From: Acidobacteriota bacterium
GTDB taxonomy: Bacteria; Acidobacteriota; Blastocatellia; Pyrinomonadales; Pyrinomonadaceae
Assembly: GCA_020200235.1 (NCBI GenBank)
Contig: JAIVJC010000043.1
Location: 1-39,705, forward strand
Direction of reading: 5' to 3'
DNA length: 39,705 bases
The stretch's first letter is position 1, and each line of letters starts with the position of its first letter. Both the position numbers and the translations under genes were made by a program. The notes beneath the pieces are model-generated. The model was not told where the DNA came from, did no database searches, and saw only the letters and a list, made by a program, of their open reading frames with translations. Of this stretch, positions 5,675 to 21,628 are shown piece by piece.

Positions 5675-5881
5675 CTCGCGTGCCTCCTTCGCCCGATCAC
5701 TGCCGTCACGGAATTTATTAACGTGCGGCAATCCTCGCATTGACGCAGCCCGCCGGTCAAACCGCGACCGCGCGACTTCGGGGCGAAGGTGCGGCGCGGC
5801 GGTGGCGTGCGTCGAGTCGCCCGTGTTAAATTAACGACGCCGATTCTCCCGCAAGGTCGAAACTTAACGAGCCGGATAATT

Positions 5882-6421
5882 GTGACAGCCCTTCCGACAA
5901 AAATCATCGCCGCCCTGCTCGCCGCGCTGCTCGGCGCGTCGGGCGGAGCCGCCTCTTTCGCCGCCTGCCCATACGCCACGGGCGAAGCGCTCGCGCGGAC
6001 GGCTTCGCACGACTGTTGCCCCTCTCAACGCGCGCGCGCCGACAGCCGCGACGCGGGGTCGCATCACGCGCACGGCGCTCCGGCACACCACGATCATCAG
6101 AACGACCCCGACCACTCGCAACGGGCGTCGCAAAGGGCAGGCTGCGCCGCGCATCGCGCCTGCGACTCCGCGCGGATCGGGAGTCGGAACGATTCCGGCT
6201 CGCCGTGCGCCGACTGCTGCGCGCCACTCCTCGCCGGCGCGAGCTCTCCCGCAGTCGCGTCACCCCGCAATGCTAATCGCGCCGACGACGCGCACGACGC
6301 GACCGCGCCTCAGCCGCTCGCGCCCGCGCCGCCGCGCCGCCGAGATTTAGCCCCGACAAAGCACGCCCCGCCCGCGCCGCGCGCGCGCCTGCACGCCCTC
6401 AACAGCGTCCTTCTCATCTAG
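5882..6421 (+). CDS. Secreted His/Cys-rich protein, unknown
   Basis: The predicted product has 179 residues, starting at GTG 5882 because a signal peptide (ALPTKIIAALLAALLGASGG) begins there; the frame is open upstream. The mature part carries CPY, SHDCC and CADCC motifs and a His-rich run (SHHAHGAPAHHDHQ). It ends in a Pro/Arg-rich segment with a hydrophobic terminus (NSVLLI). Cys and His clusters suggest metal binding outside the cytoplasm. The layout (signal, SH-x-CC, later Cys, Pro-rich part, terminus ending LLI or FLI) resembles the protein at 9182-9655. No family was recognised. It heads the presumed metal-handling cluster and is followed closely by a His/Met-rich barrel protein. Confidence 0.6.
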   Translation: MTALPTKIIAALLAALLGASGGAASFAACPYATGEALARTASHDCCPSQRARADSRDAGSHHAHGAPAHHDHQNDPDHSQRASQRAGCAAHRACDSARIGSRNDSGSPCADCCAPLLAGASSPAVASPRNANRADDAHDATAPQPLAPAPPRRRDLAPTKHAPPAPRARLHALNSVLLI

Positions 6422-8805: not shown

Positions 8806-9117
8806 ATGAAAACGGCTGCGGAGCTGAAGGGGCTCGCGCCCACGCTCGCGCCGGAGTCGTTCGCGGGCAAGTCGCGCCTGGCGTACCAGGCGGTGCGCGA
8901 GATTCCGCGGACGATCGCGCAGTTGCCGTGCTACTGCCACTGCGACGTGGGCTTCGGTCACAAGAGCCTGCACACCTGCTTCGAGGACGACCACGCCTCG
9001 CACTGCGCCGTCTGCGTGGACGAGGCGCTGCTCGCCTACAAGTTGCAGAAGGAGGACGGGCTGAAGCCCGATCAAATCCGCGAGCTGATCGTTGCCCAAT
9101 ACTCGCGCGCGCAGTAG
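8806..9117 (+). CDS. PCYCGC-type protein, probably 5'-truncated
   Basis: The 103-residue ORF contains PCYCHC followed by a conserved Cys-rich segment (GHKSLHTCFEDDHASHCAVCVDEA). This resembles the PCYCGC-motif (lipo)protein family, whose members are secreted and of unknown, possibly metal-linked, function. The same frame is open upstream of ATG 8806 for about 60 codons with sensible secreted-protein composition (AAQPAPSAQ, HDDHHD). That stretch runs into the 160-bp repeat element without any start codon or signal peptide. The original N-terminus has therefore probably been lost to the element. ATG 8806 lacks a clear ribosome-binding site. If it is the true start, the protein would be cytoplasmic, unlike its relatives. 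Confidence 0.7.
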   Translation: MKTAAELKGLAPTLAPESFAGKSRLAYQAVREIPRTIAQLPCYCHCDVGFGHKSLHTCFEDDHASHCAVCVDEALLAYKLQKEDGLKPDQIRELIVAQYSRAQ

Positions 9118-9181
9118 TCAGGGCGTGCCGGCGCGCGATCCTGCTAGACTTCGGAATCCGTTAAGGACTAATATCCAACCG

Positions 9182-9655
9182 ATGCGTGAGCGTGTTAACA
9201 GAGACGGCCGCCTGCCGCGACGCCTCGCCGCCTTCGGGCTGGCGCTGTGGATCGGCGGGGTCGGCTGCCTCTTCGGCTGCGAGATGACGGTCTCCGCCGC
9301 GGGCGCGCGCGACCGTCACGCGGCAGGGCAGAAGGAGTCTGCCCGCGCCACGAGTCACGGCTGTTGCCACGCGGCGAAGAAGAAGAAATCTGGCGCGGCC
9401 GCGACGGTCGCCGCGTCGGACATCTCTGTTCGTCCGGCGGCGCGCGCGGACGGCGCGATCTCGCAGTGCCCTTTCAGTAACCCGGCGATCGATCCGGCGC
9501 GCAAAGTCCGCGCGGAAGACACTCAGGCGCTCGCGACCGTCAGCCCTCGCGCCCTCGCGCCCGAAGTAAAAACTTTTGCGTTCAATCCGCCTCTCAAGCC
9601 GCTCGCGCCAGACCGCGGCGGAACCTACCTCCGTTGCTGTGTCTTCCTGATTTAG
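9182..9655 (+). CDS. Secreted Cys-containing protein, unknown
   Basis: The 157-residue protein has an N-terminal hydrophobic segment (about residues 14-34) containing GCLFGC, which could be a signal or lipoprotein-like anchor. It then has SHGCC, a Lys run, SQCPF and a C-terminus ending TYLRCCVFLI. The paired cysteines suggest metal or thiol chemistry. Its organisation parallels the protein at 5882-6421. The ATG at 9182 is chosen because the hydrophobic segment follows it; AAGGA lies rather far upstream (about 15 bp). It has no recognised family and belongs by position to the metal/redox cluster. Confidence 0.6.
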   Translation: MRERVNRDGRLPRRLAAFGLALWIGGVGCLFGCEMTVSAAGARDRHAAGQKESARATSHGCCHAAKKKKSGAAATVAASDISVRPAARADGAISQCPFSNPAIDPARKVRAEDTQALATVSPRALAPEVKTFAFNPPLKPLAPDRGGTYLRCCVFLI

Positions 9656-9736: not shown

Positions 9737-10273
9737 ATGAACAGCATCAAAGTTCTCGCCCTCTGCCTCGCGCTGGGGCTCGTCGCGTTCGTCAACGCGG
9801 CAGGCTCCGCGCAGACCACGCAACACCGCAGCGAAGCCGACAGGACGCACGCGAGCCGTCACGCGGACTGCCCGTGCTGCGCGATGAAGCACGCCTCGCA
9901 TCAACAACACACCGCGGCGCAGACCACGGGTCAGGCCACGCAGGCGAAGACCGACGCCGACGGCTGCTGCACCGACTGCCAGCACGACGGCGCGTCATGC
10001 TGCTCGGCGCATCACGAAGGTCAGAAGACTGACGGCGCGTGCGCGAACTGCAAGATGGGCGCGCACAAGTCTGACCGTAAGACCGCCGCGACAGGCGCGG
10101 CGGCTGATGCTTCGTGCTGCAAGATGCACGGCGCCGCGGGTCACGATCACGCGGCTGCAACGTCGGGCGGCGATCACAAGGCGATGCACGACTCTCACGC
10201 CGACACAGCCGCGGGCGGCTGCTGCTGCGCCGCGGGCGACTCCTGCCCGTTGAAGAAAACTGAAGGGCGATAA
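9737..10273 (+). CDS. Secreted metallothionein-like Cys/His-rich protein
   Basis: The 178-residue protein follows a good ribosome-binding site (AGGAGA). A classic signal peptide ends at about NAAGSA. By hand count the mature part holds 16 cysteines, in CPCC, CCTDC, CC, CANC, CC, CCC and SCP groups, and 16 histidines plus several Met. Hydrophobic residues are few. This composition fits a periplasmic or extracellular metal buffer, comparable in logic but not sequence to a metallothionein. The metal is unknown. A strong intrinsic terminator lies 12 bp after the stop, so this gene may be expressed at a higher level than the downstream tlpA. Confidence 0.8.
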   Translation: MNSIKVLALCLALGLVAFVNAAGSAQTTQHRSEADRTHASRHADCPCCAMKHASHQQHTAAQTTGQATQAKTDADGCCTDCQHDGASCCSAHHEGQKTDGACANCKMGAHKSDRKTAATGAAADASCCKMHGAAGHDHAAATSGGDHKAMHDSHADTAAGGCCCAAGDSCPLKKTEGR

Positions 10274-10354: not shown

Positions 10355-11317
10355 ATGATCGTACAACCCGAAACGAACACGCGCGCGAGTCGCGCGAAAT
10401 TCGCGGCGACAAATCTACTTCTGATCACGTCCGCCATGCTCGCGCTCTGCGTCGTCGCGGCGGCGCAAGAGTCGACCGTCACGCTCGCGGGTCAGGTCGT
10501 CTGCTCCGACTGCTGGTCGGAGGCGAAGGATCGCGTGAAGACGCCTTACGGCAACGCCGCCGATCTGGTGTGCGCCGCCACCTGCGCCGCGAAGGGGAGG
10601 CCCGCCTCGCTCGCCGTCAAGACGGGCGAGGGCAATCAGTTCGCGCTCTACCAGCTCGAAGAGGGTCGGTTCAAGACCGGCGCGAAGGACTGGCTCGCTC
10701 TGATGGGCAAGCAGGTGGAGGCGACGGGCACCATGCGCGGGGAGGGCGGCAAGCGGCGCCTGACGGTCGACGAGTTGCGAGTCGTCTCCGACTCGCCCGC
10801 GGCGCTGGAAGCCGCGAAGATGATCGGCACGCAAGCCGAGCTTGCGCTCAGAGACCTCTCCGGCGCGGAGCAGCGCCTGAGCGCGCTGCGCGGCCGCGTC
10901 GTCGTGCTCAACTTCTGGGCGACCTACTGCGCGCCGTGCCGCAAGGAGATGCCCGACCTCGCCGCCATTCAGAACGACTACGCCGCGCAGGGCGTGCAGG
11001 TCGTCGGCGCGTCGTCAGACGAGGCGGAGGATCGCGCGAAGGTCTTGCAGTTCATCAAAGAGACGAAGATCAACTTCCCCGTCTGGCTCGGCGCGACCGC
11101 CGAGATGATGCCGCGCTTCGGGCTCGTGCCGGTGCTGCCCGGCACGGTCGTCATCGACCGCGAGGGCAGGATCGTCTCGGCGTCGAACGCGGTCGTCAAC
11201 CCCGCGGCGCTGCGTAAACAGCTCGACGCCCTGCTCGCCGCCGACGAGAAGAAGGCGGCCGCGCAAGGAGGCGGGGCGAAGGAGGAGGCGGGCGAGGCTT
11301 CGACCGTCCCCTCCTGA
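10355..11317 (+). CDS. TlpA-like thioredoxin with Cys-bearing N-terminal domain
   Basis: The 320-residue secreted protein has a signal peptide at about residues 18-38. Residues ~40-145 form an OB-like domain (VTLAGQVVCSDCW, VEATGTMRGEGG) that holds its own CSDC pair and CAATCA. The thioredoxin domain at ~160-290 has active site FWATYCAPCRKE and the loop LPGTVVIDREG. The tail is Lys/Ala/Gly-rich. The ATG follows GGAG. Two separate cysteine sites suggest electron transfer between domains, or metal delivery. The gene lies downstream of the Cys/His-rich protein and upstream of two barrel-type genes, one of them the candidate selenoprotein. Confidence 0.85.
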   Translation: MIVQPETNTRASRAKFAATNLLLITSAMLALCVVAAAQESTVTLAGQVVCSDCWSEAKDRVKTPYGNAADLVCAATCAAKGRPASLAVKTGEGNQFALYQLEEGRFKTGAKDWLALMGKQVEATGTMRGEGGKRRLTVDELRVVSDSPAALEAAKMIGTQAELALRDLSGAEQRLSALRGRVVVLNFWATYCAPCRKEMPDLAAIQNDYAAQGVQVVGASSDEAEDRAKVLQFIKETKINFPVWLGATAEMMPRFGLVPVLPGTVVIDREGRIVSASNAVVNPAALRKQLDALLAADEKKAAAQGGGAKEEAGEASTVPS

Positions 11318-11344
11318 CCGCTTTGACCTGGAGAGGGTCGCGCC

Positions 11345-11872
11345 GTGAGCGGGACGGGACAACAAGATGAATACAAGTGGACGTTCGGGGCGCGCGTGAT
11401 CGCGAACCAGATCGACCGCGCGAAGTGGAGGAACACTCTGACGTACAGGTTCCACCCGCGGTTGACGGCTGGCGTCGAGTACAACCCGCTCGCGGGGAAG
11501 GTCAGCCCGCTCGCGAACTTCGTCGCGCTGACGGAGACGCACAAGCGCCCCGCCGTCATCGTCGGCACGAGCTCCGACCGCATCGGGACGCCTTCGGGTC
11601 AGTCGTTCTACGCGACCTTCAGCAAGAATCTGAAGCACGCGACGAAGCTGCCCGTCGCCCCTTACGTCGGCGTCGCCTACGGCACGTACGAGGATCGGCT
11701 GCGCGTCATCGGCGGGCTCAACGTGAACTACAAAGACTGCTGGTCGTCCACGATCCTCTTCGACGGCGTGCGCGTCCACCCGCTCGTCAACTACGCGCGC
11801 GGGCGTCACGTCGTCTCGCTCGTCATGGAGCGCGGGCGCAACCCCGGCGCGAGCTACAGCATTTCGTTCTGA
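11345..11872 (+). CDS. Small beta-barrel-like protein, unknown
   Basis: The 175-residue protein starts at GTG 11345 after a GGAGAGGG site. It is almost all amphipathic beta strand (RNTLTYRFHPRLTAGVEYN, APYVGVAYGTYEDRL) and ends in a Phe (SYSISF), as outer-membrane barrels do. However, no signal peptide is visible. It lies 27 bp after tlpA and 22 bp before the next gene, so it is probably in one operon with the candidate selenoprotein. No named family was recognised. Confidence 0.65.
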   Translation: MSGTGQQDEYKWTFGARVIANQIDRAKWRNTLTYRFHPRLTAGVEYNPLAGKVSPLANFVALTETHKRPAVIVGTSSDRIGTPSGQSFYATFSKNLKHATKLPVAPYVGVAYGTYEDRLRVIGGLNVNYKDCWSSTILFDGVRVHPLVNYARGRHVVSLVMERGRNPGASYSISF

Positions 11873-11894: not shown

Positions 11895-13523
11895 ATGAGA
11901 AAAATCGTGACGGCGCTGCTCGGCTTGATCATCCTCCTCGGCGGGGCGACCGCTTCGCGCGCGGAGGTCAAACGGGTGCAGATGCACATCGCGGGCTACC
12001 TGTGCGGCAATTGAGTGTACAACATACAGAAGGCCGTGAGCCGTCTGGACTACGCACCGAAGCTCAAGGAAATTCAGATCACGAGCATCAAGAAGGGGCT
12101 CGGCGTCTTCGCGCCGCAGCCCGGAAAAAAAGTCTCGTTCGCCGCGCTCAAAGAGACGTTGAAGAAGGCGGGCTACGCGCTCGACTCAGCCGACATCACC
12201 GTCGTGGGCGTCGTCAGGCGCGACGGCGAAAGCTGGTGGCTCGTCGCGGAGCCGACGGGTCAACGCTTCGCGCTCGACGGCGCGGACGTTGAGAAAATAC
12301 TGGCGGGATTGACCGAGGGCGCGCGCGTCGAACTTACGGGCGACTGGAAGACGGCGGGCGAGGGCGACTCGGCGCGCGAGACGATCAGGCCGCGCGCCGT
12401 GAAGAAGCCGGGAGCCGCGACGAAGACGGCGCGCGCGACGGGCTCGTCGCCCGACGAGCGAACGATTTCGGAGTCGTCATCGACGGAAGAATCGCCGGTA
12501 ACATTCTCTACGGCGAGTTTCGATGCTGAAGCGCCTCGGCAGTGGCTCGCCGTCCCGCTCGCGGACACGTTGCCGTCTGAGACTTCAAAGAAGATCGTAG
12601 CAGCGTCGAAGTCGGATTCATCATCACGAGCGTCGAAGTCGGATTCATTATCGCGCGCGCCGTCGTCTTTCGACTCTTCGCCTAAGTCGTCAACTATACT
12701 CGCGCCGATCCGCACCACGTCGCCGGGGCTGACGGTCTACAAGGGGGGCGCGGTGACGCCGCGCCTCTACCTCGTCGAGCAGCACCTCGGCGGCTTGAGC
12801 GTCAGCCGCCAAATCTTCAACCTCGGCGTCTCCTACACGCCCTCGCCGCGCGTGCAGCTCGAAGTCGAAGTGCCCGTCTCGCGCACCTCTTTCGACGACG
12901 GCGCGAAGGAAGGGAGCGGCGCGGGCCTCGGCAACGTGACGCTGTGGGGCAAGTACCGCTTCTACCGGACGCTGAAGACTTACGGCGACAGGCAGGCGGC
13001 GGTGCGCGTCGGGCTGGAGCTGCCGACGGGACGCAAGACGGCGCCGACGGCGAGCGAGGTCAACGCGCCCGCGTTCGTCCGCCAGCAGTTGACGCCGATC
13101 AGCGGCGGGTTCGCGCCGCACCTCGATCTCGCGTTCTCGCAGGCGGGCGGGCGGTTCATCTTCGGCGGCGACGCCGAGGGGGTGCTGCGCACCGAGCGCG
13201 ACGGCTTCCGCATGGGGCACGAGCTGAGGGTCAACACCGATCTCGAATACGTGCTGTTGCCGTTCAGGTACGAGAGTCCCGGTCACGAGCTGTTCCTCGT
13301 CCTCGAAACGAGCTTCGTCCACCGCGGCACGGGTCGCCTGGGCGGGCTCGCGGTTCCCGGCAGCAAGGCGACCGAGTTCTACGTCGAGCCCGGTCTGCAA
13401 TACGCCGCCGCCCCGCGCTTCGTGATCGAGGGCAGCGTGCAGTTCCCGCTCGTGCGCAACACTGGCGCGTTGATGCTGCGCACCGACCGGAACATCCTCG
13501 TCGGCGTGAGATACCTGTTCTGA
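11895..13523 (+). CDS. Candidate selenoprotein: HMA (CGNU) fused to outer-membrane barrel
   Basis: ATG 11895 has a strong ribosome-binding site (AAGGAG, 8 bp). A signal peptide ends at SRA (residues 21-23). Residues ~25-95 form a heavy-metal-associated (HMA) domain with GYLCGN at the metal loop. The next codon (codon 40, 12012-12014) is TGA, exactly where the second Cys of MxCxxC belongs. The frame then stays open for 502 codons and completes the HMA fold (VYNIQKAVSRL, KKAGYAL). An OB-like segment follows (~95-150), then a Ser-rich linker with a 27-bp direct repeat (12603-12656), and a ~270-residue barrel ending in VRYLF. A SECIS-like hairpin starts 12 bases after the TGA. Selenocysteine is the best reading; a nonsense mutation or restart at GTG 12015 are the alternatives. 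Confidence 0.7.
12027..12047 (+). promoter_or_regulatory. Bacterial SECIS-like stem-loop
   Basis: CAGA (12027-12030) pairs with UCUG (12044-12047). An A/G mismatch follows, and GGC (12032-12034) pairs with GCC (12040-12042), closing a five-base loop CGUGA. The loop starts 20 bases after the UGA and has G at its second position. Both fit the general rules for bacterial SECIS elements (apical loop roughly 16-37 nt after UGA, a G among its first two bases). Short stems like this also arise by chance in GC-rich DNA. Confidence 0.55.
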
Positions 13524-13533
13524 GGTCGAGAGG

Positions 13534-14097
13534 TTGAAAGCGTTAGCCCTCGCACTACTCCTGCTCGTCGCGCAGCGCCCCGCGCCGGAAGCGTCGAAGC
13601 AGTCTCCCGCGCTCGCGCTGAGAGACCTGCGCGGTCGCGTCGTCCGGCTGAGCGACTACAGGGGCAAGGTCGTGCTGCTGAACTTCTGGGCGACGTGGTG
13701 CGTGCCGTGCCGGGCGGAAGCTCCCGACCTCGTCAAGTTGCAGCGCGACTACGGCGGCAAGGGTCTGCGAGTCGTCGGCGTCAGCTACCCGCCGAACAGC
13801 CGCCGCGCGATGCGCCGCTTCGCGCGCGAGTTCGAGATCAACTACCCACTCCTCACCGGCACGCGCGCCGCGAAAGCCCTCTACACGAAGAGCGAGACGC
13901 TGCCGATGACCGTCGTGATCGACCGCGGGGGCAGGGTGCGAGAGATCGTCGAGGGCATTCTGCTGCCGGAGGAGTTCGAAGAGAAGATCAAGCCGCTGCT
14001 CGAAGAACCCGCGCCGCCTGTGAAGGCGAGCCCGCGCGCGCGAAAGCGCATCAGTCGGAACCGCCTGCCGCAAGCGGGCGGGTCTACCGATTGTTAG
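13534..14097 (+). CDS. ResA/TlpA-like thioredoxin
   Basis: The 187-residue secreted thioredoxin starts at TTG 13534, 10 bp after the selenoprotein stop, and is probably co-translated with it. After a short signal-like segment the domain has FWATWCVPC (active-site pair about residues 54-57) and the cis-Pro loop LPMTVVIDRGG. ResA/TlpA proteins reduce disulfides outside the cytoplasm. This one is the obvious candidate reductant for the neighbouring Cys/Sec metal site (inference). The last ~15 residues, including the stop, are encoded by the 160-bp repeat element that begins at 14054, so the native C-terminus may have been replaced. Confidence 0.85.
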   Translation: MKALALALLLLVAQRPAPEASKQSPALALRDLRGRVVRLSDYRGKVVLLNFWATWCVPCRAEAPDLVKLQRDYGGKGLRVVGVSYPPNSRRAMRRFAREFEINYPLLTGTRAAKALYTKSETLPMTVVIDRGGRVREIVEGILLPEEFEEKIKPLLEEPAPPVKASPRARKRISRNRLPQAGGSTDC

Positions 14098-19846: not shown

Positions 19847-21628
19847 ATGAATGAGATCGTGATCATCGGCGGCGGGTTCGCGGGGGTCGAGGCGGCGTGG
19901 CAGGCGGCGGAAGCGGGGGCGCGTGTCGCGCTCTACGAGATGCGCCCGTTGAAGAGCACGCCCGCGCACCGCACGGACAAACTCGGCGAGATCGTCTGCT
20001 CGAACTCGCTCAAGTCCGACGAGCCGGGCACGGCTCCGTACCTGTTGAAGGAAGAGCTGCGGCGCGGGCGCTCGTTGGTGATGGAAGTCGCAGCCGAGAC
20101 GCGCGTGCCCGCGGGCGCGGCGCTCGCGGTCGACCGGCACCGCTTCGCGGAGTCGATCACGCAGCGGATCGAAGCGCACCCGCGCATCCGCCTCGTCCGC
20201 GAGGAGATGACGCGCGTGCCCGAAGACGCGATCACCGTCATCGCCGCGGGTCCCTTGTGTTCCGACGCGTTAGCCTCCGAGATCATTCGCCTCACCGGCG
20301 ACGATCAGCTCTACTTCTACGACGCCATCGCGCCCATCGTCGCCGCCGACTCGGTCGATCGGTCGATCGCCTTTCGCGCCGCCCGCTACGGCAAGGGCGG
20401 CGACGACTACCTGAACTGCCCGATGAACGAGGAGGAGTACCGCGCGTTTTACGAGGCTCTGACGACGGCGCAGGGCGTCCCGCTCCAGCGTTTCGAGGAG
20501 ACGCGCTGGTTCGAGTCGTGCCTGCCGATCGAGGAGATGGCGCGGCGCGGCTACGACACGCTGCGCTTCGGCCCGATGAAGCCCGTCGGTCTTCCCGATC
20601 CGCGCACCGGCAGGGAGCCCTTCGCGGCGGTGCAACTGCGCCAGGAAAACTTGATGGCTGACGCCTACAACCTCGTCGGCTTCCAGAACCATCTACGTTA
20701 CGGCGAACAGGCGCGGGTGCTGAGATTAATCCCCGGACTCGAACGGGCAGAGTTCTTGCAGTACGGGCAGATTCATCGTAATACTTATATCAGAGCGCCG
20801 CGCGTGCTCGCCGCAACTTTGCAGATGCGCGAGCGACCGCGGGTCTTTTTCGCGGGGCAGATCAGCGGGGTCGAGGGCTACGTCGAGTCGGTCGCGACCG
20901 GCTGGCTCGCAGGGGTGAACGCGGCGCGGCTCGCGACGGAGCGCGGGCTCGTCACGGCTCCTTCGAAGACGGCGACGGGCGCGCTCGCGCGCTACGTCTC
21001 GCAGGCGGAGACGGACAACTACCAGCCCGTCAACATCACCTTCGCCCTGCTCGAACCCCTGCCCGAAGAGGATCGCAGGCGCGTCAGGCGCAGTCGGGGC
21101 GGCAGCGGCCCGCGCCGCAAGCATCGCCCTCGCCCGCCGCGCAGCGCCCGCGCCGCACGAACCCTGCGACGCAGACCGACGCGCCGCCCGGTCAACCCTC
21201 GTCGCCCTCCGCGCCGAGCCGCACCGGCGAAACCAATCAGGGCGCGCCCGCAACATCTTCGTCCGCGGACAAGTCTGCGACGGCGGACGCGCCGGTCGAG
21301 GTCGAGGACGACGAGGTCTACAAAGTTAATTCAAACCTCGTGCCCGTCTCGGCGAACGCGACGGACGCGGCGGGGCGCGCCGTCACCGATCTCAAACTCG
21401 AAGACTTCGAGCTGCGCGTGGACGGTCAGCCAAAGCCGATCAGCGATCTCTCGCACTCGGAGACGCCCGTCAGGATCGCGCTGCTGTTCGACAACAGCTC
21501 CAGCATCCGCCCGACGCGCGAGCTCGAGAAGCAGGCGGCGATCCACTTCTTCCGCAGCGTCCTGCGCCCCGTCGATCAAGCCGCCATCTTCTCCATCGAG
21601 ACGATCCCGCAACTCTCGCACCCGCTGA
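19847..21628 (+). CDS. trmFO: TrmFO tRNA (uracil-54-C5) methyltransferase, 3' end altered
   Basis: TrmFO uses FAD and methylene-tetrahydrofolate to make ribothymidine at position 54 of tRNA. The protein has the FAD motif IVIIGGGFAG, VCSNSLKSDE (catalytic Cys51), a second conserved Cys in WFESCLPIE, and GQISGVEGYVES. Similarity continues through NYQPVNITFALLEPLPEED and stops near 21085, about residue 412, before the usual C-terminal helix. The rest of the open frame (to 21628, mostly Arg/Ser/Thr) is an alternative frame of the next gene, not TrmFO sequence. The C-terminus is therefore probably missing, through a deletion that also removed the next gene's start. Heptamer repeats lie where the ribosome-binding site should be. 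Confidence 0.85.
   Translation: MNEIVIIGGGFAGVEAAWQAAEAGARVALYEMRPLKSTPAHRTDKLGEIVCSNSLKSDEPGTAPYLLKEELRRGRSLVMEVAAETRVPAGAALAVDRHRFAESITQRIEAHPRIRLVREEMTRVPEDAITVIAAGPLCSDALASEIIRLTGDDQLYFYDAIAPIVAADSVDRSIAFRAARYGKGGDDYLNCPMNEEEYRAFYEALTTAQGVPLQRFEETRWFESCLPIEEMARRGYDTLRFGPMKPVGLPDPRTGREPFAAVQLRQENLMADAYNLVGFQNHLRYGEQARVLRLIPGLERAEFLQYGQIHRNTYIRAPRVLAATLQMRERPRVFFAGQISGVEGYVESVATGWLAGVNAARLATERGLVTAPSKTATGALARYVSQAETDNYQPVNITFALLEPLPEEDRRRVRRSRGGSGPRRKHRPRPPRSARAARTLRRRPTRRPVNPRRPPRRAAPAKPIRARPQHLRPRTSLRRRTRRSRSRTTRSTKLIQTSCPSRRTRRTRRGAPSPISNSKTSSCAWTVSQSRSAISRTRRRPSGSRCCSTTAPASARRASSRSRRRSTSSAASCAPSIKPPSSPSRRSRNSRTR

Follow-up and report, generated by a model that had tools for sequence, protein, structure and literature searches.

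The window, by which we mean the whole 39,705-nucleotide stretch of DNA analysed, is contig C113 of a metagenome-derived assembly of a soil acidobacterium (4.08 Mb, 258 contigs, 87.6% complete). On its forward strand, preceded as a sequence-only reading had claimed by a ribosome-binding site (AAGGAG, 8 nt before the ATG at 11895), lies a frame that runs from 11895 to 13523 and contains a single internal TGA, at codon 40 (12012-12014), in addition to the terminal TGA at 13521-13523. The same reading placed this codon within GYLCGN-TGA-VYN with 502 codons beyond it, all of which proved to be as described. The gene and its close surroundings are organised as follows.

10355-11317, forward strand: second TlpA-like gene (PF00578, 85.6 bits), present in 3 of 16 relatives' loci and in L125; link to the system uncertain
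11345-11872, forward strand: gene for a 175-residue protein that accompanies the 10355 gene in L089, L090, L096 and L125; link to the system uncertain
11895-13523, forward strand: gene almost certainly encoding a selenoprotein of 542 residues with Sec at position 40, the TGA being kept at the same codon in loci across the class
11895-11960, forward strand: signal-peptide-like stretch, hydrophobic and ending SRA/AEV, similar in relatives, as judged by eye
11961-12179, forward strand: HMA-type domain with Cys37-x-x-Sec40 (AlphaFold pLDDT 83-97; PF00403 weak)
12012-12014, forward strand: TGA very probably read as selenocysteine
12027-12047, forward strand: SECIS-like hairpin with a CGUGA loop at 12035-12039, the loop starting 20 nt past the TGA; conserved at silent sites
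12180-12404, forward strand: OB-like beta domain (AlphaFold; weak Foldseek matches, best E 2.3e-3)
12414-12719, forward strand: linker of about 100 residues, predicted to be disordered (pLDDT <50 at model residues 152-253) and of variable length in relatives
12744-13517, forward strand: predicted outer-membrane beta-barrel like FapF and COG4313 (Foldseek E 1.8e-11 and 1.4e-9, respectively; AlphaFold strands)
13534-14097, forward strand: TlpA/ResA-like thioredoxin gene with a CVPC motif, 10 bases downstream (PF00578, 80.7 bits)

In keeping with the sequence-only reading, homologues carry either a Sec-type TGA or a Cys codon at the aligned position. A class-wide search (162 genomes, E<=1e-8) returned 20 loci in 19 genomes, with TGA in 19, spread over 13 genera and two families, and TGC in one. 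TGC is also what aligns there in L120, L121 and L122, three HMA proteins of the phylum that are more distantly related. When 119 genomes of the order were queried with the read-through protein, 20 matched, source genome included, and the GYLCGN motif could be read at 17 loci in 16 of them, the codon being TGA in 17/17. The remaining four matches were barrel pieces (G016, G030 and G110, the last at a contig start) and a different small CxxC HMA protein (G027). Being readable in 16 of 119 genomes, the gene is therefore patchy within the order. Among named genomes, a scan picked up 17 loci, which come exclusively from Pyrinomonadaceae or Acidobacteria(ota) assemblies and again have TGA in every case, a set that overlaps the order set in part (two loci are identical to those of G338 and G501, and most others are apparently repeats). 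G038 has the gene twice, and its additional copy (L042/L084, G038:C32) retains the TGA, partly lacks the barrel and contains an in-frame TAG. No relative was present among the 47 stretches of viral contigs that fit a pattern, and a search of plasmids for relatives gave no match.

Bacterial SECIS elements are hairpins lying just 3' of the TGA, with a small apical loop that contains a G (according to PMC1088965), features that are found in the hairpin with the CGUGA loop. Over its six codons (CAG AAG GCC GTG AGC CGT), the mean synonymous difference is 0.042, when all 308 scored columns average 0.55; none of the other 216 six-codon windows in the 16 aligned genes is as low, and the next-lowest windows either overlap these codons or lie just 5' of the TGA. 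Together with the 19 TGA and one TGC at the 20 class loci, this makes the TGA more than a product of chance. The hairpin that the sequence-only reading had claimed is thus present after the TGA, but its folding energy alone is unexceptional, with a z of -0.91 over the 45 nt from the window TGA (an equally good fold arises in 34 of 200 shuffles) and a range of -1.72 to +0.41 over 11 stretches (two from the window; selD excluded). In L033 another structure is the best fold, in L118 the loop is shifted, and RNAalifold over 91 columns also favoured another structure. In alignment A4 (21 rows, among them the TGC and UxxU copies), the loop has an invariant GU and 79.2% of hairpin cells are paired, more than in every slid version (14.9-51.2%) and no better than in column shuffles (234 of 500 reach that value) because most pairs never vary. 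One pair is double-changed (A-U to G-C, in L119), a level of covariation reached by 28 of 500 shuffles. We found folding energy or covariation alone unconvincing as proof of a SECIS, and it is silent-site conservation that bears the argument.

As for the Sec genes that were expected in the source genome, the assembly contains a tRNA-Sec (69.6 bits, cut-off 47, anticodon TCA), selA (531 bits) and a Sec-type selD (349 bits) with its own in-frame TGA within CAGUAAK, but selB was not found in this 87.6% complete assembly, either above the family-model cut-off or with the SelB of a congener as query. The best match to the latter, at the end of the window contig, is probably EF-Tu, judging from its tRNA neighbours. 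In the order, selB is above cut-off in 94 of 119 genomes (the sole congener among them), that is, in 13 of 16 genomes with the gene vs 81 of 103 without it, which indicates that the Sec pathway is common and does not single out the carriers. The missing selB is probably a gap in an incomplete genome. Of 23 genomes checked for tRNA-Sec, 22 gave a match, the exception being G107; matches above cut-off number four in G093 (C6, C11 and C15) and two each in G036, G037, G100 and G360.

A Cys version of the system is found in G360, a 100% complete genome from another family of the class, whose domain is 59% identical over 81 residues and has TGC at the codon. There, the HMA domain has a 174-residue gene to itself, behind which come a distinct barrel gene (386 residues) and a TlpA gene, an order like that of the window. 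Since G360 carries tRNA-Sec and selB, its Cys was not imposed by a missing Sec pathway. The TGC copy retains most of the hairpin sequence (alignment A4), which suggests that it may descend from a Sec form. In a genome of another class, G472 (L119/L124, G472:C95), the motif reads GYLUGFU, a UxxU variant with two in-frame TGAs, whose frame soon breaks down and which looks decayed, shortened or mis-assembled.

The protein that reading through the TGA would produce has a composite architecture, for which AlphaFold gave a mean pLDDT of 72.2 when the mature sequence was modelled together with 17 relatives, and of 92.6 for the first 156 residues alone. The sequence-only reading had proposed that the TGA stands at the second-Cys position of an HMA-type metal loop (GYLCGN-U), which is borne out by profile matches and AlphaFold: model residues 1-73 follow the HMA order strand-helix-strand-strand-helix-strand, the first helix being preceded by a CxxC-type loop, and the second Cys of this loop is Sec in the window protein and Cys in L118. 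The domain is best termed HMA-type, and no Pfam member, because the window protein scores 14.3 bits with PF00403, under the gathering score of 24.8; at E<=0.01, the profile picks up 15 of 16 members (best 1.2e-5). All 17 domains weakly match copper-chaperone CopZ, UxxU metal-binding and MerP models (with the window protein, TIGR02052, the MerP model, gives 17.6 bits, under its curated cut-off of 92.55). Among the seven profile matches in the PDB, six are HMA chains of copper or zinc ATPases and the seventh is a glutaredoxin. No NCBIfam cut-off was reached by the Sec protein, nor at E<=0.1 by the first of the 17 domain sequences. The selenoprotein proposal, although supported, had overlooked what lies beyond this domain, that is, the OB-like domain (no Foldseek match with E <0.001), the C-terminal outer-membrane barrel and the TlpA partner gene. 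For the barrel, PF13557 (Phenol_MetA_deg) gives 20.9 bits with the window protein, under the gathering score of 22, and E<=0.01 in 7 of 16 members (best 1e-7).

The downstream TlpA-like gene is a regular neighbour, found at most about 135 bases downstream in 14 of the 16 fetched relatives' loci, as well as in L123 and L125; as for the exceptions, L096 ends 126 bases past the gene, and L091 has sequence there with no match. In G103, the TlpA gene is followed by an ordinary CxxC HMA gene. On the other side, 2.8 kb upstream (8806-9117), the window encodes a Cys-form CYCXC (seleno)protein that scores 103.1 bits with NF041379 (cut-off 90), a family of which Sec forms exist elsewhere (PMC13188914). 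This gene recurs in 2 of 16 loci and metal-type neighbours are found in few of the 16, and the metal context is thus suggestive only. Small secreted-looking Cys/His-rich proteins are also encoded upstream (5789-6421, 9092-9655 and 9737-10273; no Pfam match at E<=0.1), two of which have tails that end in LLI/FLI, as does a protein upstream of the gene in L086. Where the pair at 10355-11872 recurs, it is once on the opposite strand and its 175-residue protein, which has no Pfam or NCBIfam match, is 59-83% identical. Further along the window, a 593-residue frame (19847-21628), the start of which we take to resemble TrmFO, has an Arg-rich tail that is apparently out of frame, a possible frameshift.

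The CxxC of HMA domains is a ligand for soft metals, proteins of the TlpA type reduce disulfides in the periplasm, and Sec exceeds Cys in both softness and acidity as a ligand. The computations establish the conserved TGA with its Cys counterpart, the conserved codons of the hairpin, the Sec genes listed above, the order of the domains with their predicted folds, and the TlpA gene next door. Sec insertion as such, the place of the protein in the cell, its binding of metal, its reduction by TlpA and the way in which metal moves are what we infer, the function being derived from the above general properties, in a scheme where (i) the hairpin 20 nt past the UGA at 12012-12014 would direct selenocysteine insertion at residue 40, (ii) the protein would be exported, with its barrel in the outer membrane and the flexible linker keeping the OB-like and HMA-type domains in the periplasm, (iii) Cys37 and Sec40 would form a soft-metal site (of the Cu, Ag or Hg class) that binds only when reduced, (iv) the Cys-Sec bond would be reduced by the TlpA-like thioredoxin encoded next and (v) the tethered domain would pass metal to the channel, or gate it, moving metal out of the periplasm. 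We put at about even the chances that the function is indeed that of a soft-metal site in the periplasm, attached to a channel by its tether and maintained in the reduced state by TlpA. The conserved TGA with TGC in its stead in the like-ordered genes of G360, the silent-site conservation of the hairpin, the tRNA-Sec, selA and Sec-type selD genes, the HMA matches, the FapF/COG4313-like barrel, the adjacent TlpA gene, the CxxC HMA gene of G103 and the Cys/His-rich and CYCXC proteins upstream speak for it, while it is weakened by the absence of a detectable selB, by the weak folding energy and covariation of the hairpin, by the differing structures in L033 and from RNAalifold, by the scarcity of metal-type neighbours, by the glutaredoxin match and by L091, which lacks TlpA.

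Nearly as well placed, with chances that we would rate somewhat below even, is a redox-only alternative in which the protein is likewise a selenoprotein but uses its Cys-x-x-Sec for thiol-redox chemistry and not for metal, relaying electrons in the periplasm together with TlpA to the cargo of the channel or to another protein. This would fit with the TlpA-like gene being a steadier neighbour than any metal gene, and with CxxU being usual in redox selenoproteins, as stated in PMC13188914. Against a redox centre stand the predicted fold, which is HMA-type and not thioredoxin, and the statement in that review that Sec may act as a metal ligand in some families. Returning to the soft-metal site, one can picture a single-protein, selenium-dependent exporter, in which a Cys-x-x-Sec metallochaperone domain, on its tether of about 100 residues, would feed soft metal from the periplasm directly into its own outer-membrane channel and be recharged by a dedicated thioredoxin, without a tripartite pump, an unlikely version.

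Explanations that do away with selenocysteine fare much worse. If the TGA were a true stop, a short HMA fragment would end at 12012 and a barrel protein would restart at the adjoining GTG, for which one could invoke the GTG that follows the TGA in the window and the separate HMA and barrel genes of G360. We rejected this very improbable scenario since the codon right after the in-frame TGA is GTG in 15 of the 20 class loci, but GTC in four and ATC in one; moreover, a stop would cut the HMA fold past its first strand, the flanking residues are conserved on either side, and silent sites past the TGA are conserved as in a SECIS. Less credible still are the ideas that the TGA arose in assembly, that the codon is decayed or that suppression inserts another amino acid, which a fragmented metagenome assembly without a detectable selB might invite, but we rejected error and decay because 13 genera show the same TGA in other assemblies, with the frame open beyond it, and suppression has to contend with the presence of tRNA-Sec and with TGA also being the terminal stop of the window gene and of 13 of the 17 loci read. 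That the gene encodes a selenoprotein is close to certain, and an apparent stop codon is very probably read as selenocysteine in the metal-binding loop of an outer-membrane-channel-like protein.

How does this protein relate to known systems? The sequence-only reading had mentioned reports of mercury-transport-like selenoproteins from metagenomes, and HMA-like selenoprotein families, which it had missed, are already catalogued (NF041115 and NF045683). NF041115 (UxxU_metal_bind, metal-binding (seleno)protein), which likewise has an HMA-like metal loop with Sec, is weakly matched by all 17 domains (for the window protein, 21.7 bits for the domain alone and 16.6 for the whole protein, curated cut-off 95), but is a 74-position model of UxxU type with two Sec (PMC13188914) and no barrel, whereas the window protein is CxxU with a barrel. 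Sec is likewise found in heavy-metal-transport-type proteins such as NF045683 (MerT_CopZ_Se, NCBIfam 20), matched by one of the 17 domains (E 0.059), and the MerP and putative mercuric transport selenoproteins of the GOS survey (PMC2398784), which, going by their names, are inner-membrane MerT or free MerP types and, unlike the window protein, have no outer-membrane barrel. Outer-membrane proteins with predicted Sec include the FCYXU TonB-dependent receptor (NF049945, with CxxU) and the GSU2204 MtrB/PioB barrel (NF041027), which are other barrel families, neither model matching the window protein up to E 1. FapF and the COG4313 channel share the barrel fold, but with 14-16% identity over the aligned part and with the HMA, OB-like and Sec parts outside those matches. 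Table 1 of a 2026 review (119 families; PMC13188914) contains the UxxU metal-binding protein, the putative mercuric transport protein, the FCYXU TonB-dependent receptor and the MtrB/PioB barrel, and no HMA-barrel fusion; nor is an HMA-barrel selenoprotein named in titles or abstract openings among the matches listed in the open-licence literature. HMA-like selenoproteins and outer-membrane selenoproteins are both known, and it is the combination of the two that seems new as far as these sources go.

In conclusion, these genes apparently represent an uncatalogued selenoprotein family in Acidobacteriota, which will appear truncated or split wherever the TGA is taken as a stop. The split-gene Cys homologue of G360, in a genome where tRNA-Sec and selB are still present, is a natural counterpart against which to gauge the contribution of selenium, and Sec in a metal-loading loop, rather than in a thioredoxin fold, bears on the question of Sec as a metal ligand.
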